Positions 1 to 15,115 of a stretch of DNA of 30,390 nt are shown piece after piece (positions within the stretch are counted from its first letter, which is position 1; the number at the start of each line of letters is the position of its first letter). A program made the translations under genes and the position numbers. The DNA is from a virus, in IMG/VR virus record IMGVR_UViG_3300042923_000938, positions 1-30,390 of that record; one strand, given 5' to 3'. Below the pieces are notes generated by a model. The model was not told the DNA's origin. It searched no databases and saw only the letters and a list, made by a program, of their open reading frames with translations.

Positions 1-178
1 CAATAGTCCCAAACTGATATGATTCTTGTTCATTGACTTTCTTACGAGCCAATTTCTTCAATAGTTTATAAGGAAGTTCAGTTGGAATATGATTGAATTT
101 CTTACCTTGCACAAAGTATTCTTTCTTCAAATTCGTGCTAATTTCAGTCATTGCTGCGTTTACTTTTGATTTTTCCAT
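1..178 (-). CDS. Hypothetical protein, N-terminal part (runs off window)
   Basis: Open frame from ATG at 178 to the window edge, 59 codons seen, stop not reached. The ATG is preceded by AAAAGGGTGGAATACATA, a good ribosome binding site. The visible part is basic and begins MEKSKVNAAMTEISTNLK. It has no domain I recognise. It follows the 216-557 gene and is separated from it by a 25-bp copy of the intergenic repeat. Function unknown. Confidence 0.6.
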   Translation of the reverse strand, partial: MEKSKVNAAMTEISTNLKKEYFVQGKKFNHIPTELPYKLLKKLARKKVNEQESYQFGTI

Positions 179-195
179 TATGTATTCCACCCTTT

Positions 196-220
196 TATGT
201 ATTATTTAATATTATTTATT
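196..220 (-). repeat. 25-bp intergenic repeat, copy 1
   Basis: Identical over 25 bases to 20476-20500, and one mismatch from 21030-21054. It contains the 11-bp core AATATTAAATA (minus strand, 203-213). All three copies lie between a stop codon and the next ribosome binding site, and the stop codon of the upstream gene is inside or touching the repeat. No TTGACA box is in register, so this copy is an operator-like or RNA-level element rather than a full promoter. Confidence 0.75.
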
Positions 221-557
221 CAACTTTCCCATTCCAGTTATTAAATTCATTGACGGCGTTTTTAATGGCTTCTTCTTTGGCAAAATCATTTTCTTCCCAA
301 TTCTCATATTCTTTTACAGCATCTTTTACTAATCGAATATAATCTGATTCATATTTTTCATAAAATTCCTTAGTGTTGTCCCAAGTTGAACGTAAACTGT
401 AAACCTTTGTATATTTAAAAAGATGAATTTTCTTCCAATTTTTCATATAAACTCTTGCGACTAATCCAACCCAATCTTCATAATCAACAGTAACTAAGTA
501 TTCTCTTCTATCAGTCGTTACTGGAAATTTTTCTAGTGTAGTTTTTAAATATGCCAA
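216..557 (-). CDS. Small acidic phage protein, paralogue of 24260-24607
   Basis: 113 residues, TTG start at 557 preceded by AAAGGTGGTGGAATTAG. The N-terminus carries a KFPVTT..EYLV pattern, then an HLFKY stretch, and the C-terminus ends in AVNEFNNWNGK. The same three blocks (KYPVIT, HPFKF, SINDFKQWDGK) occur in the protein at 24260-24607, so the two are diverged paralogues of one family. No catalytic motif or membrane segment is visible. The consensus promoter at 629-657 lies directly upstream and should drive it. Confidence 0.8.
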   Translation of the reverse strand: MAYLKTTLEKFPVTTDRREYLVTVDYEDWVGLVARVYMKNWKKIHLFKYTKVYSLRSTWDNTKEFYEKYESDYIRLVKDAVKEYENWEENDFAKEEAIKNAVNEFNNWNGKVE

Positions 558-628
558 CTAATTCCACCACCTTTTAAATGAAAATATAATTTTAAATTTA
601 TTAATCTCCTTATCTATTTGATATACTT

Positions 629-657
629 ATTATATTTAATATTATATCTTTTGTCAA
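629..657 (-). promoter_or_regulatory. Consensus promoter with repeat element in the spacer and a second copy upstream
   Basis: Minus strand TTGACA (657-652), 17-bp spacer, TATAAT (634-629). The spacer and -10 carry the core AATATTAAATA (643-633), and a second identical core lies at 672-662, exactly 29 bp upstream and just behind the -35 box. This is a textbook sigma-A promoter framed by two operator-like sites. It drives the 216-557 gene. Confidence 0.85.
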
Positions 658-673
658 TGATTATTTAATATTA

Positions 674-1141
674 TTATACAAACAACAATTCATAAACAAT
701 AAATCCAAAATAGGTCACGTGCAGCAATGTTGATAATGAACTAAATAATGTCCGTCCTTTATATAGTTTATTACGATACTTACTAATTTCAGTTTCATCA
801 GATAGATCAGGTTCTTTAAATTTTTTGCTCTTTGCTACTGACCATACTATTACCAAAATTGTATACACTAAAAATCCAACAGATGAAAATTTAATTAGAT
901 TATTTATACTTGCCATTCCCATGATTACCACGGGAAGTTCTAATCCTAACATAATTAGAGAAAAAAGTAACATGATAAATCCAAAAGAAATTACTTCAGC
1001 TCGGAAACTTTCTTCAGATATCTCTCCTTTTGCATATTTAATTTTACTTTCTCCACCTTTAACCAATATATTCTTAAACATCCCACCATTAACAAAACTA
1101 ATTGTATACCAAGCAAATAGAATAATTGATAAAAATAACAT
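674..1141 (-). CDS. Small integral membrane protein
   Basis: 155 residues, ATG at 1141 behind AAAAAGGAGAATATATA. Four hydrophobic segments are visible, near residues 2-20, 50-74, 83-104 and 133-153. A charged loop rich in Lys/Glu around 106-128 separates the last two. There is no signal-peptide cleavage motif and no enzyme motif. Function unknown; a membrane-located early phage protein is the most that can be said. Confidence 0.75.
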   Translation of the reverse strand: MLFLSIILFAWYTISFVNGGMFKNILVKGGESKIKYAKGEISEESFRAEVISFGFIMLLFSLIMLGLELPVVIMGMASINNLIKFSSVGFLVYTILVIVWSVAKSKKFKEPDLSDETEISKYRNKLYKGRTLFSSLSTLLHVTYFGFIVYELLFV

Positions 1142-1157
1142 TATATATTCTCCTTTT

Positions 1158-1168
1158 TATTTAATATT
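1158..1168 (-). promoter_or_regulatory. Intergenic repeat core
   Basis: One exact copy of AATATTAAATA between the stop of 1188-1496 and the ribosome binding site of 674-1141. No TTGACA box lies at the expected distance. Confidence 0.6.
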
Positions 1169-1187
1169 GTATAAAACATGGATTTTA

Positions 1188-1496
1188 TTACTTATTTTCA
1201 TTTAATATTTTTCTAGCAAGATACAATCCTTCGTATATTCCCGTTTCAAATGCATTATCATTTTTAGTTTTCTCATGTTTCTTCATTTCATTTTCGATTT
1301 TATCCAGAGGAGTCATTGGATTTATAACTTCTTCATCGCTGTCAATAGCTGTTATCCAATCTTTTAAGTTGTCCCATTCAATTTCATATGGATAAGTATT
1401 AAAAACCATATGAAATCTTTGTTCTTTTGTGCGATCATGATCAGAAAATGCTTGTAGTGTGTCCTCGTCAACTTTCCGTTTCAATTCATAAACCAT
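1188..1496 (-). CDS. Hypothetical acidic protein
   Basis: 102 residues, ATG at 1496 behind CAGGAGGGGAAATAG, a strong site. Acidic and soluble, with a central Trp-rich patch (EWDNLKDWITAIDSDEE) and a C-terminal helix ending GLYLARKILNENK. I do not recognise the family. It lies directly downstream of the interrupted gene 1526-1807. Confidence 0.75.
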   Translation of the reverse strand: MVYELKRKVDEDTLQAFSDHDRTKEQRFHMVFNTYPYEIEWDNLKDWITAIDSDEEVINPMTPLDKIENEMKKHEKTKNDNAFETGIYEGLYLARKILNENK

Positions 1497-1525
1497 CTAT
1501 TTCCCCTCCTGATAAAAGAATAGTT

Positions 1526-1807
1526 TTAACCGTTAATCTTTTCAAACTTATTGAAAAAGTCTTTTTCATAACAAACATATAGTGGTTTTCCTGATTCATT
1601 AATTATATAGTTACCTACGTATGCTCACGTAGGATCATCGTAATTGCCAACAACTAATGATATTGAACTTCCATTATCCCAACATCCAACTAAATTGTTT
1701 TCACTCTCTTGTTTTAACCAATCTGGCCAAGTTTCTTGATGTTTCGTGTCTGAACCATCATATTGCCATACATCAACTTTAATTGGTTTCCTACGGTATT
1801 TTGTCAT
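1526..1807 (-). pseudogene. Small phage protein of the PVxxxAxQW...GDYII family, interrupted by in-frame TGA
   Basis: ATG at 1807 behind GGGAGGAAATTAATTA, overlapping the upstream stop as TAATG. The frame runs MTKYRRKPIKVDVWQYDG to residue 60, meets TGA at 1627-1625, then continues open for 32 more codons to TAA at 1526. The continuation, VGNYIINESGKPLYVCYEKD followed by FFNKFEKI, is the normal C-terminal block of this family. The intact relative at 28636-28932 has the same ends (TAVQF and NDYIIRDDYG...FEMKYRKV). The gene is therefore split by one stop codon within its domain. The TGA lies in the loop of a 7-bp hairpin (CCTACGT/ACGTAGG). Nonsense mutation and read-through are both possible. 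Confidence 0.75.
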
Positions 1808-2142
1808 TAATTAATTTCCTCCCACTTTGCAACAGTTACCTTATGCTCGGGAATAATTTCTTCATGACTTACCTTTTTCACTTCAATTGGTTGATTATCA
1901 AAACAATTATCTTGACATTCAGTAAGACCTTGGCTCCAATCAATTTTAAAATATCTACCATAATTACCATCCCATAATGCAACATAAGATGTTATTGGCC
2001 TATACCAACGCCCATCATTCCCTTCTTCACGGTCAACTTCATATAACGTAGCTAAATTCCGGAGTTCTCTTTCTGTCAATTCTTCATTGTTATCAATTTT
2101 GTTGGTTATATATTTCTCCCAGTCATTTTCATTTATATCCAT
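1807..2142 (-). CDS. Hypothetical acidic protein
   Basis: 111 residues, ATG at 2142 behind AAAGGATGGTGATTTATT. Strongly acidic. It starts with a helix (NDWEKYITNKIDNNEELTER), followed by a Trp/Tyr-rich segment (GRWYRPITSYVALWDGNYGR) and a Cys pair (ECQDNC). Its stop overlaps the start of 1526-1807, so the two are translationally coupled. Function unknown. Confidence 0.75.
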   Translation of the reverse strand: MDINENDWEKYITNKIDNNEELTERELRNLATLYEVDREEGNDGRWYRPITSYVALWDGNYGRYFKIDWSQGLTECQDNCFDNQPIEVKKVSHEEIIPEHKVTVAKWEEIN

Positions 2143-2172
2143 AATAAATCACCATCCTTTAAAATACGCATT

Positions 2173-2325
2173 TTATTTCAAATAAATAATTGATAAAATG
2201 ATCCATGCCATCCAATCTAGTAAAAATGCTCCACATATGCAATAACCTAAAAATATGTTTAACCAAGTACCCTGTCTTTCAATTCTTTCTTTTGGTTCTT
2301 CTGGTTCTTTAATATTGTTTATAAT
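2173..2325 (-). CDS. Putative small membrane protein with no canonical start (ATT at 2325)
   Basis: A 50-codon frame reading IINNIKEPEEPKERIERQG and then a long hydrophobic stretch (WLNIFLGYCICGAFLLDWMA...), ending at TAA 2173. It fills an otherwise empty gap between two genes. A perfect AGGAGG lies at 2342-2337. The GTG three bases after it runs into a stop after four codons, and the frame shown has only ATT (2325) or ATA (2322) before the coding-like part. Either the gene starts at an isoleucine codon with a long spacer, or one base is missing between the GTG and the rest. Confidence 0.45.
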   Translation of the reverse strand: MINNIKEPEEPKERIERQGTWLNIFLGYCICGAFLLDWMAWIILSIIYLK

Positions 2326-2360
2326 ATAAACACTTTCCTCCTATTAAAACAGATAATTTA

Positions 2361-2642
2361 TTATTTATATTCAAAGTCAATTTTTATTTCAGCAACATCG
2401 ATAGGTCTGTTATTGCTATCAAAATATACATGCAGTAACCCTGAATCGTTAATCATATTTTTAAGACATCTCATAGCCTCATTTTCCGTCCTATGTAAAT
2501 CTCCATCAATAGCAATATCTACACTTTCAACTTTAACTGCTTCAATATTTTGACGATCATCTTTTTCTTCTAGTGCGAAAAAATCAGATTTAGCAAAACT
2601 ACCATTTTTTAATTTAATTGCATATCGTGTAATACGTTGCAT
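2361..2642 (-). CDS. Hypothetical protein of the small 'xIK-NGxFA' type
   Basis: 93 residues from ATG at 2642, nine bases behind AAGGAG. The ATG at 2651 overlaps the binding site and is less likely. It begins RITRYAIKLKNGSFAKSD, an opening shared in outline with the small proteins at 4235-4432 and 28445-28636 (aliphatic stretch, K-D/N-G/N, F-A). The remainder alternates strands and acidic helices. No enzymatic motif. Confidence 0.7.
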   Translation of the reverse strand: MQRITRYAIKLKNGSFAKSDFFALEEKDDRQNIEAVKVESVDIAIDGDLHRTENEAMRCLKNMINDSGLLHVYFDSNNRPIDVAEIKIDFEYK

Positions 2643-2671
2643 TATTTGCATCTCCTTATAAATCGCTCATT

Positions 2672-2911
2672 TTAAACAAAATGAATCTCTGGCTTATCCA
2701 GTAATCCCCAATTTACAGCAAATATTTCAGCATATTTAGCAGGACTAACATCAGAATACAAAACGGATTCATCAACGAAATTAATAAGGCTGCATTTGCC
2801 ATCATTAAATAATTGATTAATTTTTTCTTGATTAGCTGCTGTATTTTCCATTATCCAAATCTTCATTTGATTGATATATTCTATTCGTTCTTTCAATTTG
2901 CTCTCCGTCAT
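2672..2911 (-). CDS. Hypothetical protein
   Basis: 79 residues, ATG at 2911 behind GGAGGAAAGCA. N-terminal amphipathic helix (ESKLKERIEYINQMKIWIME), mixed C-terminal half. Soluble, mildly acidic. Not recognised. Confidence 0.7.
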   Translation of the reverse strand: MTESKLKERIEYINQMKIWIMENTAANQEKINQLFNDGKCSLINFVDESVLYSDVSPAKYAEIFAVNWGLLDKPEIHFV

Positions 2912-2938
2912 TGCTTTCCTCCGGTTGAATCGTTAATT

Positions 2939-3259
2939 TTATTCATTTTCTTTAGTTATCCATGCTTGATAACCAGCATAAATTAATTCTTTCTTCCTCT
3001 TTTCTGCTTCCTTTTCAGTTAATCTTGTATCTTCTGATAAAATTAAATCGCCATCTTGATAGTAGCTAACCTTATACGTTGTATCGTTCCACTTGTCACA
3101 TTTATTTGTTAAACTCCACAATCCATCCTCAATAAACCATTCATCACCGAATTGCTCAAATGCCGCCTTTAACTTCCAATCATCTTCCATGATGACTGCT
3201 TCGTCTTTATAATTTTGTTCAATATATGCCAACAAATGTTCTTTAGAAATAGCTTTGAT
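2939..3259 (-). CDS. Hypothetical acidic protein, apparent AUC (or AUA) start
   Basis: The first standard start is TTG at 3235, but it has no ribosome binding site. Upstream codons in frame read IKAISKEHLLAYIEQNYKD, a continuous amphipathic helix. AAGGATGTGAT (3275-3265), 9 of 11 bases of the ideal binding site, lies just ahead of ATA (3262) and ATC (3259), with an in-frame TGA before them. The likely start is therefore an isoleucine codon. The protein is acidic with a Trp-rich middle (DEWFIEDGLWSLTNKCDKW) and a basic C-terminal helix. Function unknown. Confidence 0.65.
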   Translation of the reverse strand: MKAISKEHLLAYIEQNYKDEAVIMEDDWKLKAAFEQFGDEWFIEDGLWSLTNKCDKWNDTTYKVSYYQDGDLILSEDTRLTEKEAEKRKKELIYAGYQAWITKENE

Positions 3260-3300
3260 TATTAATCACATCCTTATAACTTTTTTGTCAAATTTATATA

Positions 3301-3483
3301 TCATCCATAAAAATATTGATGCGTTCTAATCGATAGAGGATCGTTACTTACTGAAGCCCATCCTTCGCACCCTTCTTGTCTACAGTTACATGGTAGTGTG
3401 ATTAAATTACAATCATTATGATATTCTTCAATTGTAATTCCTGATCGTTCGCAATATCCTTCTTCAAATTCATTTTTAGTCAT
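3301..3483 (-). CDS. Small Cys-rich phage protein, possible zinc binder
   Basis: 60 residues, ATG at 3483 overlapping the end of 3476-3775 by eight bases. The sequence has CNCRQEGCEGWASVSNDP preceded by YCERSGITIEEY. Small phage proteins of this pattern are, as I recall, widespread in Firmicutes phages, and their clustered Cys residues suggest metal binding. No biochemical role is known to me. Confidence 0.75.
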   Translation of the reverse strand: MTKNEFEEGYCERSGITIEEYHNDCNLITLPCNCRQEGCEGWASVSNDPLSIRTHQYFYG

Positions 3484-3775
3484 CTATTTTCACTTCTTTT
3501 GTTTTAAAATTATATCTCATTCTTTCATCCATTTTTCCGTAACCGTTATGTTTTTTCTTTTGGATAAACCATCTAATAGGAGTCACAATTCCAATAAAAA
3601 TAAAAAACAGCCAAAAGATAATCATTAGATATGTGGATATATTTAATTTAATTCCACCTAAAAATCCAATTAATAACATAGCTATTGCCATAAGTCCAAA
3701 GATTTGATTAGTACCAGCAGTTAATAACACTGGATCATCCCAACACATTTCTTTAATATATCTATATAGCCACAA
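3476..3775 (-). CDS. Small membrane protein
   Basis: 99 residues, TTG start at 3775 behind GCGAGGTGAAACAAA. Two to three hydrophobic segments: LMAIAMLLIGFLGGI near 27-43, then YLMIIFWLFFIFIGIV near 49-65, which may be one or two spans. The tail is basic (IQKKKHNGYGK). Transcription probably starts in the repeated module just upstream (3792-3865). Function unknown. Confidence 0.7.
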   Translation of the reverse strand: MWLYRYIKEMCWDDPVLLTAGTNQIFGLMAIAMLLIGFLGGIKLNISTYLMIIFWLFFIFIGIVTPIRWFIQKKKHNGYGKMDERMRYNFKTKEVKIDD

Positions 3776-3791
3776 TTTGTTTCACCTCGCA

Positions 3792-3865
3792 TACTATATG
3801 TAGTTTTTATTTAGTTTATTTATCTATATATTGTATCTAAAAAGCAATAAAATGTTGGTTTATTC
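3792..3865 (-). repeat. Repeated intergenic module (terminator-like hairpin plus putative promoter), copy A
   Basis: The region aligns with 17302-17377. Both share TACTATATGTAGT, a TATTTA-rich block, TATCTAT..TTGT.TCTAAAAA and a hairpin. On the minus strand the order is: stop codon of 3880-4215 nearby, hairpin AATAAA/TTTATT (3864-3846) followed by CTTTTTA, an A/T-rich block, the short ACTA/TAGT inverted repeat, then the next ribosome binding site. This copy has a degenerate AATATTAAATA core. Confidence 0.6.
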
Positions 3866-3879
3866 TAAGAAATTGAAAT

Positions 3880-4215
3880 TTATTCTCTGTAACCATCATA
3901 AATTTCAATTTCTGTTATTTCTTCATTTTGAAATGAACTTTGAATTACGATATCACCAACCTCATTTTTTAATTTGATTAAATCTTCCAATGTTTCAAGA
4001 TCAATAAACCATCCAGTAGATTCAAAATCTCTTTTAATATATCTATTTTCTACTCTGTGATTTTTCCCTTCTGAGTACCAATCTACCTTTAATTTTAATT
4101 TCTTTGGATCATCTACTTTTCGTGTATCAACTTGAATATATTTATCTCTATATGCTTTTTCATATGGTTGCTTTGCTTCATCCCATACACTGGTTCTAGA
4201 TATTAAAAATTTCAT
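3880..4215 (-). CDS. Hypothetical protein
   Basis: 111 residues, ATG at 4215 behind AAGGAGTGAATTTTT. Mixed charged sequence with mainly beta character: KFLISRTSVWDE at the start, STGWFIDLETLEDLIKLKNE in the middle, and ITEIEIYDGYRE at the end. Last gene before the module at 3792-3865. No known motif. Confidence 0.7.
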   Translation of the reverse strand: MKFLISRTSVWDEAKQPYEKAYRDKYIQVDTRKVDDPKKLKLKVDWYSEGKNHRVENRYIKRDFESTGWFIDLETLEDLIKLKNEVGDIVIQSSFQNEEITEIEIYDGYRE

Positions 4216-4234
4216 AAAAATTCACTCCTTAGTT

Positions 4235-4432
4235 TTATTCTTTAATTTTCGGTATATATTCGACAATATGATCTGCATCTTGATAATGTTTCATGTTTGT
4301 TTCAGCTCGATTTAAAGAACGAAAGGCTGGTATCTTATTAGGTTTACTCCATGATAATGCAAAATTATTATCCTTATTGAAAAGTATGAACACACTAGAT
4401 AAGTCAATTCCCTTTACTTTCAATCTTCTCAC
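4235..4432 (-). CDS. Small protein related in outline to 28445-28636
   Basis: 65 residues, ATG at 4432 behind GAGGTGAGA. Pattern SSVFILFNKDNNFALSW, then KIPAFRSLNRAETNMKHYQDADHIVEYIP. The protein at 28445-28636 shows the same order: CLFAIVDKDGNFAK, then KTPAFQTEGMANYCKRYF..ELHIVMYEP. The shared blocks are hydrophobic-KD-N-FA, PAF-x-(S/T), a helix, and I-V-x-Y-x-P. They are likely paralogues. Function unknown. Confidence 0.7.
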   Translation of the reverse strand: MRRLKVKGIDLSSVFILFNKDNNFALSWSKPNKIPAFRSLNRAETNMKHYQDADHIVEYIPKIKE

Positions 4433-4450
4433 CTCGATGAAAACATGATT

Positions 4451-4747
4451 TCAACCGTTGTTTTCCATACTTTCTTCCAATTCTTTTATTCGTTTATCAA
4501 TCCATGCTCTTTCTCCAGCTACATACATATTTCCTCTACTATAATAAGAATCCAGGAGTTCATCTTTCAAATTGTAAATTTCAGTAGATAATTTTTCAAT
4601 CGCATTATCCCTTGATGATAAGGCTTCGATATAATCTACACCTCCCAATGCATATCCGTTATTAATGCCATCAATTATATTCGCTGCTCTTTCCTCATCA
4701 ACAGGCAAATATGTTGCAATTATATTAATTAACTCTTTTTGTGTCAT
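4451..4747 (-). CDS. Hypothetical helical protein
   Basis: 98 residues, ATG at 4747 behind GAGGTGATAAA. Begins TQKELINIIATYLPVDEERA and is predicted helical throughout, with a coiled-coil-like stretch from about residue 45 to the end. A mini-hairpin (4760-4777) sits just before its ribosome binding site. Not recognised. Confidence 0.7.
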   Translation of the reverse strand: MTQKELINIIATYLPVDEERAANIIDGINNGYALGGVDYIEALSSRDNAIEKLSTEIYNLKDELLDSYYSRGNMYVAGERAWIDKRIKELEESMENNG

Positions 4748-4780
4748 TTTATCACCTCGATAAAAGCCCGATTTTATTGC

Positions 4781-4894
4781 TTAAGTATCTTCTTTGATCT
4801 TTTCTTTTGCTAATTTAGCACCACCAATAGCTGCACAGTAAACCATACTTCCGAGTCCAACAAATGCGACAATTCCAAAGATCAATAATGCCAT
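4781..4894 (-). CDS. 37-residue single-span membrane protein
   Basis: ATG at 4894, stop TAA at 4781. Hydrophobic residues 2-20 (ALLIFGIVAFVGLGSMVY) followed by a Lys-rich tail (GGAKLAKEKIKEDT). The binding site is weak (GAAGATGATTGGTA). The composition is that of a real one-span miniprotein, N-out or N-in unknown. It is followed by a mini-hairpin and the next strong ribosome binding site. Confidence 0.5.
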   Translation of the reverse strand: MALLIFGIVAFVGLGSMVYCAAIGGAKLAKEKIKEDT

Positions 4895-4906
4895 TACCAA
4901 TCATCT

Positions 4907-5077
4907 TCACTTCTTTCTATTATTTAATTTTATATTAAATAAAACAACTTCGAACCAATCACAAATCTTATGTATTACTAAGATGATCACAGACATTGCA
5001 ACCAACAATAAAATTACAAATAATGACACTATCATAGCTGATATGTAATACTCATACCATAATTACAGTAATGGCAT
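4907..5077 (-). pseudogene. Small membrane protein frame with TAA at codon 5
   Basis: ATG at 5077 stands 6 bases behind AGGAG, but the frame reads MPLL then TAA (5065-5063). It continues open for 51 codons with an obvious membrane span (MIVSLFVILLLVAMSVIILVI) and a basic tail ending NNRKK, with its stop at 4907. The first internal ATG (5035) has no ribosome binding site. Either the gene is broken by a nonsense codon, or the first ORF is a four-codon leader with re-initiation at 5035. It is the first coding unit behind the promoter 5147-5175. Confidence 0.5.
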
Positions 5078-5091
5078 ATTTTCTCCTATAT

Positions 5092-5146
5092 TTGATTAGA
5101 ATTAAGAGTTACAGATTAATTTAATTCCTAATCAACCTGTAACTCT
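5092..5146 (-). other. Structured 5' leader with alternative hairpins
   Basis: Two overlapping inverted repeats lie right at the predicted transcript start. One is a perfect 10-bp pair, AGAGTTACAG (5105-5114) with CTGTAACTCT (5137-5146). The other is a longer pair, TTGATTAGGAATTAA with TTAATTCTAATCAA (minus-strand sense, about 5134-5120 with 5105-5092), with one bulged G. The first pair reaches to the -10 box, so it may act in DNA. The second lies wholly in the RNA, ahead of AGGAG and the ATG at 5077. They cannot form together. Confidence 0.55.
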
Positions 5147-5175
5147 ATTATATTTAATATTATTTATGTTGTCAA
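5147..5175 (-). promoter_or_regulatory. Consensus promoter with repeat core in spacer
   Basis: TTGACA (5175-5170), 17-bp spacer, TATAAT (5152-5147). Core AATATTAAATA at 5161-5151, and a near copy (AAAATTAAATA) at 5191-5181, 30 bp upstream. It drives the small membrane genes downstream. Confidence 0.85.
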
Positions 5176-5179
5176 CTAT

Positions 5180-5680
5180 TTATTTAATTTTATTCAGTAT
5201 ATCTTCAACAATTTCATTGCTTGTTTGATTTGCTGTATTAATTTTATTAATTTGATATTCTGTACTATCCCATACGCTATTATATTGGTTTAAAATTTGT
5301 TCAATTTGATCAGATTTTACATACTCATCTCCACGAACTTTAATACGTTTCTTAATTGTATCGGCATCGGCATATAAATAGAATACTTTTACCTGTTCGA
5401 TTGTCATGAGGCTTTCAATAAGTTTCTTTTGGCTTTCATTAATCATTGCAAAGTCTTTATATAACGGTGCATAACAAATATTTGAATAGATGTATCTATC
5501 AATAATAAGATCTGTTTTTCCAATTACCATTTTAAGAAATTTAGAAAATAATTCTCCTCGTGAACATCTCGCTTGTGCGAATGACGATCCTTGGATAACT
5601 TCAAAATTTAATTTTTCTTTTAGTTTGTTTGCTACTGTAGATTTATAGCAGCAATCTACCCCTTCTAAAACAATAATCAT
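5180..5680 (-). CDS. Thymidylate-kinase-like deoxynucleotide kinase
   Basis: 166 residues, ATG at 5680 behind AAGGAGAATACAT. P-loop kinase of the dTMP/dNMP kinase type. The N-terminus is MIIVLEGVDCCYKST, the family's substrate motif is DLIIDRYIYSNICY (about residues 58-71), and an Arg-rich lid region reads KKRIKVRGDEY. Such enzymes phosphorylate dNMPs for phage DNA synthesis in the cytoplasm. Oddity: the Walker A glycine before the lysine is Tyr (Y12-K13), so the P-loop is GxxxxYKST. It is the last gene of the replication block and is shorter than cellular Tmk (about 210). Confidence 0.75.
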   Translation of the reverse strand: MIIVLEGVDCCYKSTVANKLKEKLNFEVIQGSSFAQARCSRGELFSKFLKMVIGKTDLIIDRYIYSNICYAPLYKDFAMINESQKKLIESLMTIEQVKVFYLYADADTIKKRIKVRGDEYVKSDQIEQILNQYNSVWDSTEYQINKINTANQTSNEIVEDILNKIK

Positions 5681-5691
5681 ATGTATTCTCC

Positions 5692-6306
5692 TTAATTTTT
5701 ATATATCTTTATTTGTTTAAATTGACGACCGAAATTAATACATTCTTGCTCTGTTTCAAAAAATACATCAAATGTATTTCCTACAATTTTTGATCCTCTG
5801 TCACTTACTATCCTGCGACCTAATCCTGGTATATCTACCACTGAACCTAAAGGGATATTTTTCGGTGCCGCTATCGAAATTCCGGCTTGTGGACGTTTTC
5901 CATTTGCCATAGTTAGCCCATCTCCCACTCCACCACTATATGTATAAGCCGTGAGAATTGCATTTACTATGTAGTATGGTTTCTCTTGTTTCTTTTTCTT
6001 TTGTATTTCTCTCTCCTTATTTAATTTTATTATGTGTTCTTCTTTAATTCGTTCACGTTTCTCTTCTGCTTTTCTAGCTTCCAGTTTGCGTTTTTTAAGC
6101 CATTGTTGACGAGTGAATAGTTTAAGTCTCATAGTATCTTTATTCATCTGTAATGTATCAATAGCCTTTATTTTGGCTATTCTGTGCTTATGTTGTTTAA
6201 CATGTTTCCGATGAAAATCTAGTTTTATCTTAGGAATTAGTGCAGAAGAAGTTAGCACTAAAATTAATAACAGTATAACTAATGTTTTCTTTATCTTTTT
6301 GTTCAT
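5692..6306 (-). CDS. Membrane-anchored or secreted 3D-domain protein (YorM-like)
   Basis: 204 residues. An N-terminal hydrophobic segment (residues 8-24) follows NKKIKK, as in a signal anchor. Then comes a long Lys/Arg-rich helix (about 30-110) and a C-terminal 3D domain: TAYTYSGG near 121, GLTMANG, then VSDRGSKIVGNTFDVFF with its conserved Asp residues. 3D domains occur in resuscitation-factor and MltA-type wall-active proteins, so an extracytoplasmic cell-wall role is likely. Its place just after the polymerase matches yorM in SPbeta, as I remember it. It contributes nothing obvious to replication itself. Confidence 0.8.
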   Translation of the reverse strand: MNKKIKKTLVILLLILVLTSSALIPKIKLDFHRKHVKQHKHRIAKIKAIDTLQMNKDTMRLKLFTRQQWLKKRKLEARKAEEKRERIKEEHIIKLNKEREIQKKKKQEKPYYIVNAILTAYTYSGGVGDGLTMANGKRPQAGISIAAPKNIPLGSVVDIPGLGRRIVSDRGSKIVGNTFDVFFETEQECINFGRQFKQIKIYKN

Positions 6307-6323
6307 CTAATCATCCTAACTAT

Positions 6324-9300
6324 TTATTCAATCACACTCCAAGATGTTAAAAATGGTTCCATTTCCTCACTTTTTGTCCATTTTCCATCAACAAGTTTAT
6401 TTTTAAATTTCTCAATAATTCCTTTCACTTGTATCATACTAAACTCCCCAAATGGATTTAATTTAATATCCTTCTTTTTACATTTCAAACTCTTTATCTT
6501 TCCTGTTTTTAAATTATATAATCTTAATCTTGGAGTGTATTTTGTATCTAATTCTGTTATCATATAAACATTTTCAGGTGAACCATTAGCAATACTTACT
6601 TCATAACCGTAATATTCCATTTCAAATTTAATTTGTTCTTTAATATTTAATTTTATTTCATCTAATGAATCTTCAAATTCTTTTACTTCAATAAGTCGTT
6701 TCTGCTTAGTCTCATCTTTAAGATTTTTATTTTTCAATCTTGATTCAAATTTATCAATAATTTTAAGTAATTTCCCATTATCTCCAAATTTATCAAAGTA
6801 ATTTAAAGTAGTGAGAATTTTAATTTGTCTTGAATTTGCATATGATTCATTCTTAATTTTAAATAACAAATCTGAAAAAGTATCAAATTTTAATTCTTTG
6901 CTCAAATTATATAGATTTGTTCCCACATCATTATTCAAAAATTTAATTGACCCAATTCCTTTGTAAATAGCATTTTTATCCTTATCAAAGAAATATTCAC
7001 CTTTTGAATACCCATATTTAGGTGGGAAAAGTTTAATATGAAAATATTTTAGCTCATTCATCAATTTAGATGTCATCGTTGTATCGCTATCATAAAGCTG
7101 CAAAACAACTGTATAATATTCAATTGGATATTTAGCTTTTAAATAAGCTCCGTATAGACTATCCAACGCTACAGAATAAGCATGTGATGCATTAAACCCA
7201 TATCCAACAGCATCCTGTATAATCTCCCATACTCTATCTGCATTTTCTTGACTTCCTGTTTTATCCATAAACCCTTTAATAAAACGATCATGAATCGGTT
7301 CAATTATTCCTGGTGTCTTTTTAGCGATGGCCTTAAGTAAGCTGTACGTTTCATCTTCATCAAATCCTGCATATACAAGAACTTCCATAATATTCTCTTG
7401 ATACAAAATAAAATTATCACTTTGCTGCAATAATTTATCAAACTCATGAATTCCATAGCTGAATGGTTCTCTATTCAAAAAATAACTTTTCATTGATGCA
7501 AATGATGGTCTAATTGCAGCTACCCAACCAGATAACTCACGAATACTCTTAGGTTGATATTGAATAACCTGTGGTGTTCCACTATTTGATCCTGCTTGAT
7601 TTAATGTTGCTGTGATTCCATTCTTATATAAATTCCATACATCATTATCTTGTGTTACTAACTTAGTTAATTCTCGTACATCTGGAATTGGTTTATTAAT
7701 TAATTTAAATGCTTCTGAAATTATTTTCCATACTTTTACAGTTAAAAAATCGTTTTTCAGATATTTAAATGAATCAGAAGTATGCGAATCAATTAAAGCG
7801 CAATAAGCATCTCCAACTTTAATTACTCCAAGTTCTTTAGATATCGGTTTTGATAATAATAAATTGGAACATGGATGTGGACTTACTGAATCAATTACAC
7901 CTACAAATTTTTCTGATTCTTCAATTGTATCTTTCCATTTAGGATTATTACGATAAGAATCTAAGTCTTTACCAACTGTATTATATTCAACCATAGGTAA
8001 ATTTTTAGCTCTACAATAATTTCTAAATGCTTCTGATTCTTTCATTGTTCCATATGCTACCATCCAATAGACATTATCATTTCCAAGTATTTCTCTTGTT
8101 GCTTCTCTGAATGGTTCAGGATCAACACAGTTCATATCAATATCAGGTAAGCTCTTTGTTTCGAGTATTCTTGTTTTACTCATGAATCGAGTTGGATAAA
8201 GAGTAATTGGCGCAGCTAGTCGATCAACCTCCGTAAATCCTAATAATTTATTCAAGTAGAATGATGGTGCAGAACCTCTTCCTGTTCTTGTTAAAACTCC
8301 ACCTAGTTCTTTTGCTCTTTTAATAATTTTTGAATTAAGTAAGAAATAGTCTTCCATCTTGGTATCTTTAATAATTTTTAATTCGAATTTAATTGCATCT
8401 TGATATTTTTTATAATTTTTTTGATCAATATGCTTTTTGTCCTTTAACCACTCTTCTCCGACAATATTAACAAGTTTTTTAAACTTCTTTTCATGACTCC
8501 ATCCTGGATAAATTGAAGGCATTTTAATTTCTTTATCCACATTAATATCTTCGAAGTCATCCATAACAAGGGTATTTTTCAATGCTTCAGTGATTTGATC
8601 TTTTGTAAATACTCCTTGTTTTTCATATCTCTGATAAATTGTATCTGAATCAGGGTAATCTAAAACAAATCCTTCTTCATCATCATAATGAATATTCTTT
8701 CCTGCAAGTAGTTCATCTCTATCTTTTGATTGTTTTGGATAAATATAATGTGAATCATTTGCATGGATAAATGGTATATGATATTTATTTTGTAGTATTT
8801 GTAATTTTTGATTATGCTCAATCTGTTTTGGATGAATATGGTATTGAATTTCAAGATAGAAGTTTTTTCCAAAATGATTTAACAATGGTTCAACATAGTT
8901 TTCCTCATAATCATCATACTTTGCTATATAATCACCAATACATGCCGTTGTTACTAAGACATCATTGGGATCTAGAGATATTAATAATTCTTTATCAATT
9001 CTTGCTTTATAATAATATCCTGTTTTGTTGGCTTCAGATAGAATACTATTCATTTGTTTCATGCCATCGGGATTTTTTGCCATGACAAGTAAATGGGTGT
9101 TTGTTCTATCCTTTTCATAACGATCAGTAACATAATAATATTCCATACCAAAAATCATTTTTAGATTATATTGTTGGGAAACTGTATAGTATTCAAAAAT
9201 ATTCCCTGCATATCCATGCTCCAAAGCAGATATTGTTGTATGTCCAAGTTCTTTTGCTCTTTTGGCATAATCTTCAACATGAACAATACAATCAGGTGTC

Positions 9301-9347
9301 ATAATATTTGAGTAATCTGTATGCTTATGATAATTAATATATCTCAA
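6324..9347 (-). CDS. DNA polymerase III alpha subunit (phage replicase, YorL-like)
   Basis: 1007 residues, TTG start at 9347 behind AGGAGGTGAAACT. The order is: PHP domain with HKHTDYSN (residues 7-14), ALEHG and HANDSHY (195-201); then the C-family polymerase core with GRGSAPSFYL (357-366), the catalytic PDIDMN (401-406) and KNDFL (531-535), YQENIMEVL, and GYGFNASHAYSVALDSLYGAYLKAKYP-type finger motif. All three catalytic aspartates are present. The Asn ending PDIDMN is also found in PolC (PDIDLN), so it is no defect. There is no inserted DEDD exonuclease domain, and the protein is shorter than DnaE (about 1100-1160). Proofreading, if any, would rest on the PHP domain. It replicates the phage genome together with the helicase and primase just upstream. 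Confidence 0.95.
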   Translation of the reverse strand: MRYINYHKHTDYSNIMTPDCIVHVEDYAKRAKELGHTTISALEHGYAGNIFEYYTVSQQYNLKMIFGMEYYYVTDRYEKDRTNTHLLVMAKNPDGMKQMNSILSEANKTGYYYKARIDKELLISLDPNDVLVTTACIGDYIAKYDDYEENYVEPLLNHFGKNFYLEIQYHIHPKQIEHNQKLQILQNKYHIPFIHANDSHYIYPKQSKDRDELLAGKNIHYDDEEGFVLDYPDSDTIYQRYEKQGVFTKDQITEALKNTLVMDDFEDINVDKEIKMPSIYPGWSHEKKFKKLVNIVGEEWLKDKKHIDQKNYKKYQDAIKFELKIIKDTKMEDYFLLNSKIIKRAKELGGVLTRTGRGSAPSFYLNKLLGFTEVDRLAAPITLYPTRFMSKTRILETKSLPDIDMNCVDPEPFREATREILGNDNVYWMVAYGTMKESEAFRNYCRAKNLPMVEYNTVGKDLDSYRNNPKWKDTIEESEKFVGVIDSVSPHPCSNLLLSKPISKELGVIKVGDAYCALIDSHTSDSFKYLKNDFLTVKVWKIISEAFKLINKPIPDVRELTKLVTQDNDVWNLYKNGITATLNQAGSNSGTPQVIQYQPKSIRELSGWVAAIRPSFASMKSYFLNREPFSYGIHEFDKLLQQSDNFILYQENIMEVLVYAGFDEDETYSLLKAIAKKTPGIIEPIHDRFIKGFMDKTGSQENADRVWEIIQDAVGYGFNASHAYSVALDSLYGAYLKAKYPIEYYTVVLQLYDSDTTMTSKLMNELKYFHIKLFPPKYGYSKGEYFFDKDKNAIYKGIGSIKFLNNDVGTNLYNLSKELKFDTFSDLLFKIKNESYANSRQIKILTTLNYFDKFGDNGKLLKIIDKFESRLKNKNLKDETKQKRLIEVKEFEDSLDEIKLNIKEQIKFEMEYYGYEVSIANGSPENVYMITELDTKYTPRLRLYNLKTGKIKSLKCKKKDIKLNPFGEFSMIQVKGIIEKFKNKLVDGKWTKSEEMEPFLTSWSVIE

Positions 9348-9358
9348 AGTTTCACCTC

Positions 9359-10477
9359 CTAGAATGGTAAGTTATCAAGTCCGTCTAATTCTTTAATTAA
9401 GCTATATTCCTCTTTCTTTTTTAATCCATTCTTTATTAAATAGTCTTGATAATATTTACACTCATCATGTACTCCGCATAATACACTACAATAATAGGAA
9501 TCTTGTGGTTCAATCTCTCCTCGTTCCCAGTGATCTTCATCTTTACCTCGATGTTGAATATCTTTAATATCCTTAGTCATTTCTTCCTTAAGTTCATTTA
9601 GTGTTTCGTCTGTTATTTCAGGGTAGACATAACATTCTTCAAAAGAGTATTTATTTTGTATTTCTTGTGGTAAATCAGTAATTGAATTTTTCTTAACACA
9701 TATTTCAACTTTCAATTCAATATCAATATCATTCATATCTGTTAATTCTTTTAGATCTCGTTTTAATGGTGTTTTAATCTTCTTAACCCACTGATGGCGA
9801 TCCCCAATGGTTGTTTTAATTTTCCCGTTTTTTTGCTCAAATGATATATTTACATATTTCATGAACAGCCATCTACATTTAATTTTATTAATTGGTATGC
9901 CACCTTGAATTAATCCTAGAGCATATAATAATAACTGTTTTCCATGTTCTGCTACTTGTTTACCTTTATACATAGTGCTTGTTTTATAATCAGTAATAAT
10001 AAAATTACCATCTTTATCCTTATGTATAGCATCAACATAACCCATAAATAAATTACCATTAATATCAATCCATAGAATTTTTTCAGTTGCTACTTTATCA
10101 CTCATTGTCTTATGATGTTTAAAGAAATCAATAACACAATTCTTATATTTATTTCTCATTTTTTCATTTTTATATTCATCACTACTAAACTTGTAATCAG
10201 ACATTTCTACATCTAAAAAATCAGTTTCAAATTGTGCTGCTAATTCATTTTTTCTTAACTTATGATTATAATATTTCTCCATAATATCATGAGCATATGT
10301 ACCACACAGAGTATAGATATTATCTTTTCCTCTAATATGTTTAATTCTTGATAAATAATATTCATATGTACAATTATGTAATGTGTTAATACGGCTATAA
10401 CTCCATAGCATTACATGATCACCGTATTTATCCGTAAATCTTTTTGGTATTTTAATTTTAGATCGTTCTGCCAACAA
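9359..10477 (-). CDS. PD-(D/E)XK nuclease with Fe-S cluster cysteines (Cas4/AddB type)
   Basis: 372 residues, TTG start at 10477 behind AAAGGATATGAT, overlapping the primase stop. Motifs: GTYAHDIMEKYY (His 63), FMGYVDAI (Asp 149), FIITDYKTS (Asp 163, Lys 165) and GKQLLLYALG (Gln/Tyr motif). These give a complete RecB-family active site. Cys 36 and the C-terminal group Cys 330, 334 and 340 have the placement of the 4Fe-4S cluster that staples the fold in Cas4 and AddB. It is expected to cut single-stranded or flap DNA during replication or recombination. As I recall, SPbeta has a RecJ-like exonuclease (yorK) at this place, so this may be a replacement. Confidence 0.85.
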   Translation of the reverse strand: MLAERSKIKIPKRFTDKYGDHVMLWSYSRINTLHNCTYEYYLSRIKHIRGKDNIYTLCGTYAHDIMEKYYNHKLRKNELAAQFETDFLDVEMSDYKFSSDEYKNEKMRNKYKNCVIDFFKHHKTMSDKVATEKILWIDINGNLFMGYVDAIHKDKDGNFIITDYKTSTMYKGKQVAEHGKQLLLYALGLIQGGIPINKIKCRWLFMKYVNISFEQKNGKIKTTIGDRHQWVKKIKTPLKRDLKELTDMNDIDIELKVEICVKKNSITDLPQEIQNKYSFEECYVYPEITDETLNELKEEMTKDIKDIQHRGKDEDHWERGEIEPQDSYYCSVLCGVHDECKYYQDYLIKNGLKKKEEYSLIKELDGLDNLPF

Positions 10478-10478
10478 A

Positions 10479-11486
10479 TCATATCCTTTCTCTATGCTTC
10501 AATAAATATATGAATTTTCGTCTTCCACAGTCTACTGGGCTATCTTTTTCACCAAGCAATTTCCATCTATCATTTATATATGAACATGTACGAAACATAC
10601 TAATTTTCTTGCAAAGAGACTGTAAATATTCACTTTCAACGTCATTATCAAAGGCAATTACAATCTCAACGTTTAATTTGATTAATAATTTTAGCTGAAA
10701 ATCAGAAATATCATGACAACCCACAGATACAGCATTAGGAAAACCCATCATGTCTGATTTATAAACACTTTTTTCTGCTTCATAAACTAATACAAATCCT
10801 TGTTTCTTAATATCTTCTTTATTTAGACTCAATCCATATAAATTTTTACTTTTTTCATATTTATAACCATCAACTGGAAAGTATTTAGGTATATTTAATT
10901 CTTCATAAGCATGATTAACTGTCCTTCCCACGAGTCCTACTACCTTTGTTTCGTCATTCCATGCAAAATGAGGAAATACAATTCGATTACTCTCTATATC
11001 AAATTTAATATTATATTTATCTATTACGTTTTGAAATAACCCATCTCTCTTTATTAAATCAATATGAGGGACGCTTGAATATTTATCTAAAATAGACATA
11101 TCATACATCGGTAATTCATCTTTATCTTTTTGTTTTCGCTTTATCTTATTAAAAATGTTAAGATAACTGTTTTTATTTTGATGATTGTATGATATATCTA
11201 CACCACACAATGCTGCACATTTATGTAAAGCTGTAGGAAAATCACAATGGTCAATATACATAATTAAATTATATATATTACCTTTAATTGTTTCTCCTTT
11301 ATTAAATATACGGACATTTAAAAATTCATTTATAAATATTGATACTTTTGATCCATCATTATCATCAGGCAAGGCACACCTGATCTCTTTACCATATGAA
11401 TGAAATTTATGGCAGCCTATTTTTTCAGCTATATCTTCAATAATATCTTTTTCATATATGTATTTTCTTAGTTCCTTAGCATCCAA
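10479..11486 (-). CDS. DNA primase with TOPRIM domain (YorJ-like)
   Basis: 335 residues, TTG start at 11486. N-terminal 90 residues look like a reduced CHC2-type module: IGCHKFHSYGKEIRCALP, then VSIFINEFLNVRIFNKGETIKG. It lacks a full set of zinc ligands. The TOPRIM core follows: GFVLVYEAEKSVYK (Glu 236/238) and VEIVIAFDNDVES (Asp 280, Asp 282). It makes RNA primers or assists the DnaB-like helicase encoded just upstream, and is shorter than host DnaG (about 600), lacking the helicase-binding domain length. Stop and next start overlap, so the operon is translationally coupled. Confidence 0.85.
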   Translation of the reverse strand: MDAKELRKYIYEKDIIEDIAEKIGCHKFHSYGKEIRCALPDDNDGSKVSIFINEFLNVRIFNKGETIKGNIYNLIMYIDHCDFPTALHKCAALCGVDISYNHQNKNSYLNIFNKIKRKQKDKDELPMYDMSILDKYSSVPHIDLIKRDGLFQNVIDKYNIKFDIESNRIVFPHFAWNDETKVVGLVGRTVNHAYEELNIPKYFPVDGYKYEKSKNLYGLSLNKEDIKKQGFVLVYEAEKSVYKSDMMGFPNAVSVGCHDISDFQLKLLIKLNVEIVIAFDNDVESEYLQSLCKKISMFRTCSYINDRWKLLGEKDSPVDCGRRKFIYLLKHRERI

Positions 11487-11510
11487 ATTAACTCAAACCC
11501 TTTGTCAATC

Positions 11511-13001
11511 TTATAGGTCATATGGTATATTACAAATTCCTAATTCTAAATACTTTAATGTTCCAAGTTCTTGTTCTGCAAGTATTTGAAATTCTTGGCT
11601 TCTTCCATTACGATTCTTTTCAATAAAGATAACAATATATTTTTTATTTTGATCTAACAGAATCTCTTTACCTGATAATATTGATCCACCTAATGGTTCC
11701 CATGCTTTAATTTCATTTTTTTCACCAGGATATTCATCATTTCGCAATCGACGCTGTAATAATGCAACACTTGCTACATCTAAAACGTTTTTTGCCATGC
11801 CAATATTATTCGAACTCAAAAATCTTTGTAGTGCTGCCCCTTTTTGAAGTTGTAATGTAACAATAAGAGATACATTTAATCCTGAAGGTTTACACAAATC
11901 ATCAAATTTTCTCATATCTTCCTGCATTGATAACCAAAATGATTCATTATTGTCTCGATCAGATGATATTTTAAAAGTATCTAATATAAACTTATTAACT
12001 CCTAATGAAGCATATTTCCTTACTATTCTAATGAATTGTTTACTAGAATAAGATTTGAAATGACATAATATAATTTCATTATTTGACATTTTTTCTTTCA
12101 AATATTGGCTTGCTTTATGTAATAAATCTCTCTCATTATCACTAAAATGTCCTTGTCTCCATCTTTTCTTATTAAATTGTTGCGACTCATCATGATCTTT
12201 TAAATATTTATTATTTATTATCCAAGTTAATAATTCTTGTTTCCATTTAATATGATCTTGTTCATTTAAAGCAATTACACAAGGTTCTCCTTCTTCAAAA
12301 ACAGCAGAAAGTATTTGTTCAATAAGCCATGTTGTTTTACCGGCCCCTGATAATCCGCCGATAAGATAAATTTGACCTTTAATAATTCCACCAATTTCTT
12401 CATTTAAAATTGGGCTAGGAATTGGCATACCAACGTTTAGTCCTTTATCAGCTTCACTAATAATTTCATCTAAATCATCTTCAAGTTTGTGTGATTCAAT
12501 ACCATTGTCTGCTTTCACAAATACATTATTTAATTTAGCTGTGAAGAAATCATAAAGTTCATTTACATTAAATTCTTTCACATCATCAACTAAACCTGAA
12601 TAAAATGACAATTCATCGATCATATCATACATAGCAGACCATTTAATGAAATCTTTTATATAAGAGTCTATGTTTTTTATATTTGATACACTGGAAACTA
12701 AACTTACGGTATTATATCCATTAAAAATTTTATAAGTTGATTCAGCTTGAGGATAATCTTTTATATATAGATCAACAGCCATTTCATCAATTTCCACTAT
12801 ATTTTTTGCTGCAATTTTTTCTCCAATTGTATAAAAAAACTTCCATACATCATTTTTAAACATTTTTTTATCAAGTTCGTTAAAGTCAAAATATAAATTT
12901 GGATCTTTCCATAAGCAACCAATAATGTTTGCTTCAATTGGATTCATAATGTCTTTAATTTTTTTCTTAATAACGTCCTTCTCTGTCAGTACTTTAACCA
13001 C
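11511..13001 (-). CDS. Replicative DNA helicase, DnaB/SF4 family (YorI-like)
   Basis: 496 residues. The N-terminal helical domain (EANIIGCLWKDPNLYF) corresponds to the DnaB N-domain. The RecA core has Walker A GGLSGAGKTT (215-224), an ALNEQ acid motif near 245, Walker B-like VNKFILDTFKIS, and the sensor region LIVTLQLQKGAA. Start taken as GTG at 13001, with GGTGAT six bases ahead; the nearby ATG is out of frame. It unwinds the fork as a hexamer for the polymerase and primase of the same operon. Confidence 0.9.
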   Translation of the reverse strand: MVKVLTEKDVIKKKIKDIMNPIEANIIGCLWKDPNLYFDFNELDKKMFKNDVWKFFYTIGEKIAAKNIVEIDEMAVDLYIKDYPQAESTYKIFNGYNTVSLVSSVSNIKNIDSYIKDFIKWSAMYDMIDELSFYSGLVDDVKEFNVNELYDFFTAKLNNVFVKADNGIESHKLEDDLDEIISEADKGLNVGMPIPSPILNEEIGGIIKGQIYLIGGLSGAGKTTWLIEQILSAVFEEGEPCVIALNEQDHIKWKQELLTWIINNKYLKDHDESQQFNKKRWRQGHFSDNERDLLHKASQYLKEKMSNNEIILCHFKSYSSKQFIRIVRKYASLGVNKFILDTFKISSDRDNNESFWLSMQEDMRKFDDLCKPSGLNVSLIVTLQLQKGAALQRFLSSNNIGMAKNVLDVASVALLQRRLRNDEYPGEKNEIKAWEPLGGSILSGKEILLDQNKKYIVIFIEKNRNGRSQEFQILAEQELGTLKYLELGICNIPYDL

Positions 13002-13017
13002 ATAATCACCAGACTTT

Positions 13018-13638
13018 TTAGAATATATTTTTTAATTTATTTGCAACTTTATTTTTATCTATTTCATTTTTACTAATAAATTTAGCTTCTTCGTTATGGG
13101 TAATTTTAATTTTTTCCACTTTTTTATCACTTTTAACTTTCGCTATCATTCTAAAATAAACGTCATTAATATTGTTAGTAATAATCACGAGCATATAATC
13201 AATCAAATGTTGAATGTTTTTAAATTTATTACTATCTGCAATTCCATTGATAATCATTGGTTTACATAATTTAAAAGTTATTAAAATGACATCATATGAA
13301 TAACCAGATTCATTGCCAAAAACTTTATTTCCTTTTGCTCTATAATTATTTTGCTGACCACTTTTTAAACCTTGTAACCGATTAATTAAATGTGGTGGAC
13401 ATGTTTTCCCTTCATCCCATTTAAAAATCTCAATTCGAATATAATTCCATAGTTTATTCATTTGATCACGTTCTTCTTTATTATGAATAAATATTTGATA
13501 ACAGTCTTGATGAAAATAATAATTAGATTTCGTTTTACCACTAGAAGAAATATATCTATAAACAATTGCGTTATCTTTATTTAAAGACTTATGACATTGA
13601 TGACATTTTACTTGTTTTTTATGCATCATCTCAGTCAA
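13018..13638 (-). CDS. Zinc-finger protein of the replication operon
   Basis: 206 residues from TTG at 13638, four bases behind AGAAGGTGAT. The GTG at 13647 lies inside that binding site. The N-terminus has CHQCHKSL (C-x2-C) and YYFHQDCYQ, a plausible four-ligand zinc site. The rest is basic with a long C-terminal Lys-rich tail (KVEKIKITHNEEAKFISKNE). Its place just ahead of the helicase suggests a replication accessory such as a loader or DNA-binding factor, but this is inference only. It overlaps the upstream endonuclease-like gene by eight bases. Confidence 0.7.
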   Translation of the reverse strand: MTEMMHKKQVKCHQCHKSLNKDNAIVYRYISSSGKTKSNYYFHQDCYQIFIHNKEERDQMNKLWNYIRIEIFKWDEGKTCPPHLINRLQGLKSGQQNNYRAKGNKVFGNESGYSYDVILITFKLCKPMIINGIADSNKFKNIQHLIDYMLVIITNNINDVYFRMIAKVKSDKKVEKIKITHNEEAKFISKNEIDKNKVANKLKNIF

Positions 13639-14985: not shown

Positions 14986-15024
14986 ATATGTAAACTCCAA
15001 TCATTTAATCATCTTACATATATT

Positions 15025-15053
15025 ATTATATTTAATATTGTTTATTTTGTCAA
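15025..15053 (-). promoter_or_regulatory. Consensus promoter for the replication operon
   Basis: TTGACA (15053-15048), 17-bp spacer, TATAAT (15030-15025), core AATATTAAATA at 15039-15029. Directly behind a terminator (15067-15093) and ahead of the split endonuclease gene. With no terminator seen further down, it should also drive the helicase-primase-polymerase genes. Confidence 0.85.
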
Positions 15054-15066
15054 TATAAGAATATAA

Positions 15067-15093
15067 GGGAGCTAGGTAAACCCTATTGCTCCC
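15067..15093 (-). terminator. Intrinsic terminator after the ATPase gene
   Basis: Stem GGGAGC/GCTCCC with an inner TAGG/CCTA stem, followed on the minus strand by TTATATTCTTATATT. It lies 23 bases after the stop of 15116-16081 and separates that operon from the promoter at 15025-15053. Confidence 0.75.
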
Positions 15094-15115
15094 CATTTAA
15101 ATAAATATTTCATAA

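Follow-up and report, generated by a model that had tools for sequence, protein, structure and literature searches.

What function does an 11-bp sequence serve that recurs between the genes of a viral genome in one orientation and sits, in several strong promoters, at one and the same register? The window (the whole stretch of DNA analysed here, a virus record of 30,390 bp) carries almost every gene on the minus strand, and its 57 ORFs make up 27,186 bp of coding and 3,204 bp of intergenic sequence. It derives from a large virus of Bacillus-like bacteria. Gene order and content show synteny with SPbeta-like phages (yorF to yorR of the SPbeta annotation) and, judged on this basis, the window is a fragment of such a phage. 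The corresponding block is:

5180–17285, minus strand: block resembling SPbeta yorF–yorR, assigned from PHROGs and from gene order against the SPbeta annotation.

This block includes a thymidylate kinase, a 3D-domain protein, a DnaE-type DNA polymerase, an exonuclease, a primase, a DnaB-like helicase and a Sak4-like protein; an ATP-dependent ligase and an XRE regulator were also named in the window (PHROGs, Pfam). The DNA polymerase shares 61% identity with its counterpart in Geobacillus virus E3 and 59% with the one in Psychrobacillus phage Perkons. Besides, two ORFs resembling homing or HNH endonucleases (13631–14683 and 19021–20112) lie in or near the replication block.

The sequence in question, AATATTAAATA, has 16 exact copies in the window, compared with a mean of 0.65 and a maximum of 2 in whole-window dinucleotide shuffles. 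The initial annotation had assigned it to 15 intergenic places, always in gene orientation. With the 57 ORFs masked, 14 of the 15 copies on the gene (minus) strand are wholly intergenic, while the fifteenth (20483–20493) overlaps a stop codon by two bases; gene orientation holds for these 15 but not for the sixteenth copy (19028–19038, plus strand), which lies inside ORF 19021–20112. This sole opposite-strand copy is situated at the end of the endonuclease-like ORF. Base composition was ruled out as the cause of the repeat by shuffling intergenic DNA alone, which gave a mean of 0.10 and a maximum of 2 copies (500 shuffles), and no gene-strand copy is wholly coding (mean of 0.3 in 200 shuffles of coding sequence), so the preference for intergenic over genic DNA persists after AT correction. 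By place, the 15 gene-strand copies divide into seven in promoter spacers, two upstream of those and six within operons.

The promoter copies share a strict geometry. TTGACA begins exactly 14 bases before the core, with 8 bp in between, in 7 of the 15 gene-strand copies (P ~ 9e-10, corrected for 120 offsets, with the background measured at up to one mismatch), and the core thereby occupies the last 9 bp of the 17-bp spacer in seven sigma-A promoters. All seven promoters that had initially been placed at this register (629, 5147, 15025, 18304, 21808, 22041 and 25652) were confirmed, each with an exact TTGACA; the −10 box reads TATAAT in five of them, TATTAT at 21808 and TAAAAT at 25652. Second copies had also been described beyond the −35 box. 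Those at 629 and 22041 are indeed exact and 29 bp upstream, and the near copy at 5181 lies 30 bp upstream with one mismatch. The near copy at the 18304 promoter exists as well (AAAATGAAATA, two mismatches to the core), yet its real place is 18338–18348, at 30 bp, and not 18337, at 29 bp. The remaining three promoters (15025, 21808, 25652) have no second copy within two mismatches. In detail, the promoters are:

629–672, minus strand: promoter with candidate operator pair (upstream core 662–672, −35 box TTGACA 652–657, spacer core 633–643, −10 box TATAAT 629–634).
5147–5191, minus strand: promoter with candidate operator pair (near core AAAATTAAATA 5181–5191, −35 box 5170–5175, spacer core 5151–5161, −10 box 5147–5152).
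15025–15053, minus strand: promoter with a single spacer core (15029–15039).
18304–18348, minus strand: promoter with spacer core 18308–18318 and the weak upstream copy at 18338–18348.
21808–21836, minus strand: promoter with spacer core 21812–21822, upstream of the XRE gene.
22041–22084, minus strand: promoter with exact candidate operator pair (upstream core 22074–22084, −35 box 22064–22069, spacer core 22045–22055, −10 box 22041–22046).
25652–25680, minus strand: promoter with spacer core 25656–25666 and −10 box TAAAAT.

The six other gene-strand sites lack a −35 box at the promoter register and are found upstream of ribosome-binding sites:

203–213, minus strand: in-operon core directly before a ribosome-binding site.
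1158–1168, minus strand: in-operon core directly before a ribosome-binding site.
16106–16116, minus strand: in-operon core ahead of the Sak4-like (YorG-like) gene, preceding a ribosome-binding site.
17320–17330, minus strand: in-operon core, with an SD-like sequence 22 bp further on.
20483–20493, minus strand: in-operon core sharing two bases with the preceding stop codon.
21037–21047, minus strand: in-operon core directly before a ribosome-binding site.

As a separate observation, positions 1–20000 of the window contain no intrinsic-terminator-like site, against 4.4 expected in shuffles, a scarcity that weakly fits operons in need of silencing help along their length.

Related fragments share this arrangement. 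The pattern TTGACA-N8-AATATTAAATATAAT was detected in 15 stretches of the viral collection, and in 21 with a relaxed −10 box; many of them stem from three metagenomes and contain blocks 75–100% identical to the window or to each other, while several single-match stretches, some of higher G+C, are probably background. Over full records, the forward/reverse core counts were 2/15 in G001 (arranged around a change of coding strand), 11/0 in G002, 8/0 in G010, 0/6 in G008, 0/4 in both G007 and G009, and 4/0 in G011. Searching the genome collection for an isolate or prophage with the same operator returned only 14 stretches with one match each in scattered genomes, which we read as background. In the window plus seven related fragments we counted 30 spacer-type promoters (TTGACA and core with at most one mismatch each, 8 bp apart) of 29 distinct sequences, some of which are orthologous between fragments and hence do not represent 30 independent events. 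A second core with at most two mismatches accompanies 16 of the 30, at 29 bp in nine and at 30 bp in seven; no promoter has one at any other offset from 24 to 35, the background being ~0.3% per position. The promoter at 5147–5191 has similar pairs at its aligned counterparts in G002, G009 and G010, and those aligned to 15025–15053 in G002, G008, G009 and G010 likewise show a single spacer core, with one mismatch. Among the in-operon sites, 203–213 has copies at the aligned position in G002 and G010; in this alignment of orthologous sites many rows are paralogous promoter matches, and the sites at 16116 and 17330 are covered in part.

When the 70 exact cores of the eight fragments (window included) were classified, 26 fell into promoter spacers, 8 upstream of the −35 box, 20 before an SD-like sequence and 16 into none of these settings, at least two of the latter lying inside ORFs. 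The proposal that the set silences many promoters at once thus agrees with the promoter slots and leaves aside the 6 of 15 window sites, and the 36 of 70 family cores, that are in neither promoter slot.

This distribution also bears on whether the element might belong to the promoter itself. AATATTAAATA is not merely an extended −10 box, for all 11 bases also recur at places that lack such a box. A phage-specific promoter, recognized by a YonO-type RNA polymerase or of an activator-dependent class, would explain why the core abuts the −10 box in seven promoters and why copies are numerous in the late region of G001, where ATACATAT comes after three of them. However, those seven promoters, with their exact TTGACA and 17-bp spacer, should need no help, copies upstream of the −35 box or within operons are not tied to any fixed promoter partner, and in SPbeta the same slots are bound by a repressor; we therefore regard this explanation as improbable.

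G001 adds information on lifestyle. It encodes a YonO homolog (51.6% identity over 845 aa) and a tyrosine integrase (L109 270–1271; Pfam 1.2e-35) whose own promoter, TTGACG-N8-AATATTAAATATAAA, places the gene in the putative operator set of G001. A YonO homolog and an operator-bearing integrase together make lysogeny likely. Beside the yonO homolog, the stretch L019 5979–12168 (G001 ~29,000–35,200) further encodes a tubulin-like protein (PhuZ family, PHROGs 8.5e-12), which follows a small ORF, and an FtsK/SpoIIIE-like ATPase, perhaps a plasmid-style partition system.

Which protein, then, would bind these sites? The window itself offers one DNA-binding regulator:

21303–21782, minus strand: XRE-family HTH protein of 159 aa (Pfam HTH_3, 1.2e-17), encoded behind an operator promoter.

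Its gene directly follows the promoter at 21808, as might be expected of an autoregulated, CI-like repressor that acts on the whole set. XRE repressors usually bind palindromes as dimers, whereas the present site is asymmetric. In addition, no homolog (E≤1e-3) was found in the other operator-bearing fragments, themselves incomplete, and the loci searched yielded only a weak 43-residue match, in L094. This candidate is hence disfavoured: the XRE protein is unlikely to be the cognate repressor, and we give very little credence to its autoregulation through these sites.

MrpR (YopR), the master repressor of SPbeta, has homologs in the two phages with the related polymerases: E3 gp146 and Perkons ORF66 (8e-47 and 2e-38) adjoin YopP and YopQ homologs, and E3 gp146 matches both Pfam MrpR domains. 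An MrpR match was found in 45 records of the phage collection. No MrpR, YopP or YopQ homolog was detected in the window or the available family fragments (MrpR sought in 11 operator-pattern records, profiles run on ORFs of at least 60 aa from the window and eight records), where the MrpR and YopP profiles matched only two ordinary tyrosine-integrase genes of G001. Nor was the repressor of the virus itself among the matches listed for YopQ and MrpR in the viral collection, and the MrpR loci of 80 of 127 relatives contained no AATATTAAATA array, with at most one copy each, a result that counts against an MrpR-type repressor. The missing MrpR homolog is not informative, since the family-fragment genes with an E3 match correspond to ~77–91 kb and ~6–25 kb of E3, outside the mrpR region at 106–107 kb, which is ~15 kb upstream of the ligase and beyond the reach of the window and G002.

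Taken together, we consider it probable that the copies of the repeat, dispersed in one orientation through a temperate SPbeta-like phage, serve as the operators of an MrpR (YopR)-type master repressor that has a specificity of its own. What the sequence shows is the enrichment of the copies, their orientation, register and pairing, their conservation in related fragments and their placement in slots identical to those of SPBRE. The MrpR type of the protein, whose gene was found neither in the window nor in the family fragments, is an inference, as are repression itself and the role of in-operon binding. One repressor molecule would bind the asymmetric AATATTAAATA; in the strong sigma-A promoters it would sit over the spacer and the beginning of the −10 box, blocking RNA polymerase, and often a second molecule 29–30 bp upstream would complete a pair that brackets the −35 box and excludes the polymerase. 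On the intergenic copies upstream of ribosome-binding sites, the repressor would bind facing the same way and probably impede readthrough transcription, as a roadblock or in a stoperator-like manner. In the lysogen, the set as a whole would keep the genes for replication, the integrase and the late RNA polymerase (yonO) silent.

The initial annotation had likened the repeat to the SPBRE operators of SPbeta and MrpR. MrpR is reported to give ten ChAP-seq peaks at promoters with SPBRE and a 15-bp motif, and to be monomeric in solution (PMC10516654). The SPBRE letters used here are shared words that we took from the SPbeta record, in the DNA preceding the ten ChAP-peak genes, and not the published consensus. 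So defined, the core AATATGTAT lies in a 17-bp spacer at yonP, yorZ and yorE (TAGACA-N17-TATAAT), and at yosX with a variant −10 box; it is upstream of the −35 box at aimR and at the first of two yonX copies, and directly before a ribosome-binding site at yopV, yopM and the second yonX copy. The yorM copy, in a setting like that of a spacer, falls within the annotated start of the gene, and all extracted copies follow gene orientation. The window element is similarly AT-rich, asymmetric and gene-oriented, and its family occupies the same three kinds of slot relative to the −35 box, the −10 box and the SD sequence. Both are found in SPbeta-like genomes with sites at yonO, aimR and early genes, the homologous targets here being the yor-like block and the yonO promoter slot of G001. 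The analogy hence stands for slots, orientation and synteny. It does not extend to the core sequence, which is AATATTAAATA and not AATATGTATA, at an exact offset that differs by a base or so: as extracted here, AATATGTATA has no copy on the gene strand of the window and two on the other, and the sequence comparison with SPBRE suggested initially thus gave no match. Moreover, unlike SPBRE, the window family often forms pairs at 29–30 bp, 15 gene-strand copies crowd into 30 kb of window and many into the late region of G001, compared with a handful of promoter-linked SPBRE in SPbeta, and the cognate repressor was not found in the family's fragments.

The same slots filled with different sequences were also observed in several MrpR-encoding phages. 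In the yonO operon promoter, all six lineages examined (SPbeta, phi3T, Staphylococcus SPbeta-like, Perkons, E3 with a variant repeat, and G001 of the window family) carry their own repeat in the 17-bp spacer. At aimR, the lineage repeat is directly upstream of the −35 box in nine of nine loci with an aimR match (17 searched), and five different types of repeat sequence are found among these nine. Counting twelve lineage motifs in twenty stretches produced a nearly diagonal table. The window motif scored 15/1 in the window, 15/1 in G001, 11/0 in G002 and 8/0 in G010, and 0–2 on the gene strand elsewhere, controls included; own-genome counts were 10/3 for SPBRE in SPbeta, 9/1 for the phi3T motif in phi3T, 23/0 for the Perkons motif, 13/0 for that of phi116 and 9/0 for that of Alicyclobacillus KKP_3916. 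As motifs were chosen from the same genomes, the diagonal is expected, and what informs is the scarcity off it, together with the slots. Exceptions are the Staphylococcus, phi116 and E3 motifs, which resemble one another, a motif shared by L043 and L035, three exact phi3T-type sites in SPbeta and five reverse-strand SPBRE cores in Perkons. The aimR and yonO slots constitute the independent evidence for lineage-specific sites, and related viruses seem to have evolved different site sequences in the same places.

An automatic motif scan lends weak support to lineage-specific repeats. Across 33 MrpR lineages, the best 12-mer exceeded the best of six 17-kb controls (12.6) in 13, on stretches of unequal length (10 to 41 kb), with A-homopolymer-like words filtered out and words dropped if reverse-strand copies surpassed 34% of forward ones. 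The 20 lineages that did not exceed the best control count against the reading, though SPbeta, for which binding is proven, is among them, and the positives include Brevibacillus phage Sundance, whose two-part-looking repeat may be a promoter. In a ranking of motifs on 17–39-kb stretches, polyA was strongest in the control SPO1 (set aside by eye) and an AT dinucleotide run came out on top in Perkons. The Sundance locus (L054, 265–12671) contains sixteen copies (at most three mismatches) of TTTACATTAATATATG, most with a GTGTG-T-rich element ~20 bp upstream, an arrangement more suggestive of a phage-specific promoter in two parts than of a simple operator. Alicyclobacillus phage KKP_3916 (L051) has 11 versus 2 copies, within one mismatch, of TCGCTTGACAAG, which contains a −35-like TTGACA. 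The Sundance and KKP_3916 repeats are thus built differently from the operators described above, a result that counts against the common reading.

SPbeta additionally carries eight gene-oriented copies, within one mismatch, of the phi3T-type GAATAAAAATAAAAT, most just before ribosome-binding sites and one directly upstream of the yosX −35 box:

90638, 95085, 113684, 119410, 120660, 128336, 129181 and 132767 of NC_001884: gene-oriented phi3T-type sites.

They may be relics of another immunity type, recombined genes or a separate element, and can be read for or against MrpR-type operators. In-operon elements might have another function, because SPbeta has these sites while its MrpR motif is SPBRE. 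Survival beside a different type of repressor, the single orientation and the many copies just before ribosome-binding sites could all be accommodated if the in-operon copies were an RNA-level signal with no relation to the promoter copies, acting in translation or RNA processing. We hold this to be improbable, given that the SD-like sequence follows at anything from 1 to 22 bp, that the identical 11-bp core serves in the spacer and upstream of the −35 box, and that SPBRE copies just before ribosome-binding sites (yopV, yopM) lie under MrpR peaks.

The reading as MrpR-type operators can be taken further. In the literature searched, in which subscription papers are largely absent, we found no description of operators of MrpR homologs outside SPbeta, and SPbeta MrpR with SPBRE was the only experimentally described pair of this kind. 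If the lineage repeats are cognate operators, they provide a ready set of repressor–operator pairs with different specificity, the immunity groups of large SPbeta-like prophages become predictable from sequence alone, and one can test how dozens of phage sites come to change along with the repressor. Tentatively, and with somewhat more doubt than conviction, we propose that phages of Bacillota have a second stoperator system, evolved independently and run by MrpR-type repressors with their inactivated tyrosine-recombinase fold. In it, genome-wide sites of one orientation would block initiation and elongation, sequences would be lineage-specific and slots conserved, with the repressor and its dozens of sites changing jointly and delimiting immunity groups. 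On this view, the phi3T-type sites of SPbeta would be remnants of such a joint change, or of recombination among immunity groups.

The system to which this proposal refers is that of cluster A mycobacteriophages (L5 gp71, TipsytheTRex repressor), whose more than 20 asymmetric, transcription-oriented sites are situated in promoters and short intergenic gaps and are each read by the L5-type repressor as a monomer (PMC9283540). The window family resembles it in its many asymmetric sites of one orientation in promoters and intergenic gaps, and MrpR, too, is reported as a monomer in solution (PMC10516654). The folds are unrelated, with an HTH plus a Stoperator domain in the L5-type repressor and a tyrosine-recombinase fold in MrpR. 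L5-type repressors arrest elongation; by analogy, MrpR sites, including the in-operon copies described here, may act in a stoperator-like manner, and the lineage repeats, if they are cognate operators, allow a direct test of whether a repressor with a recombinase fold can arrest elongation as L5-type repressors do.
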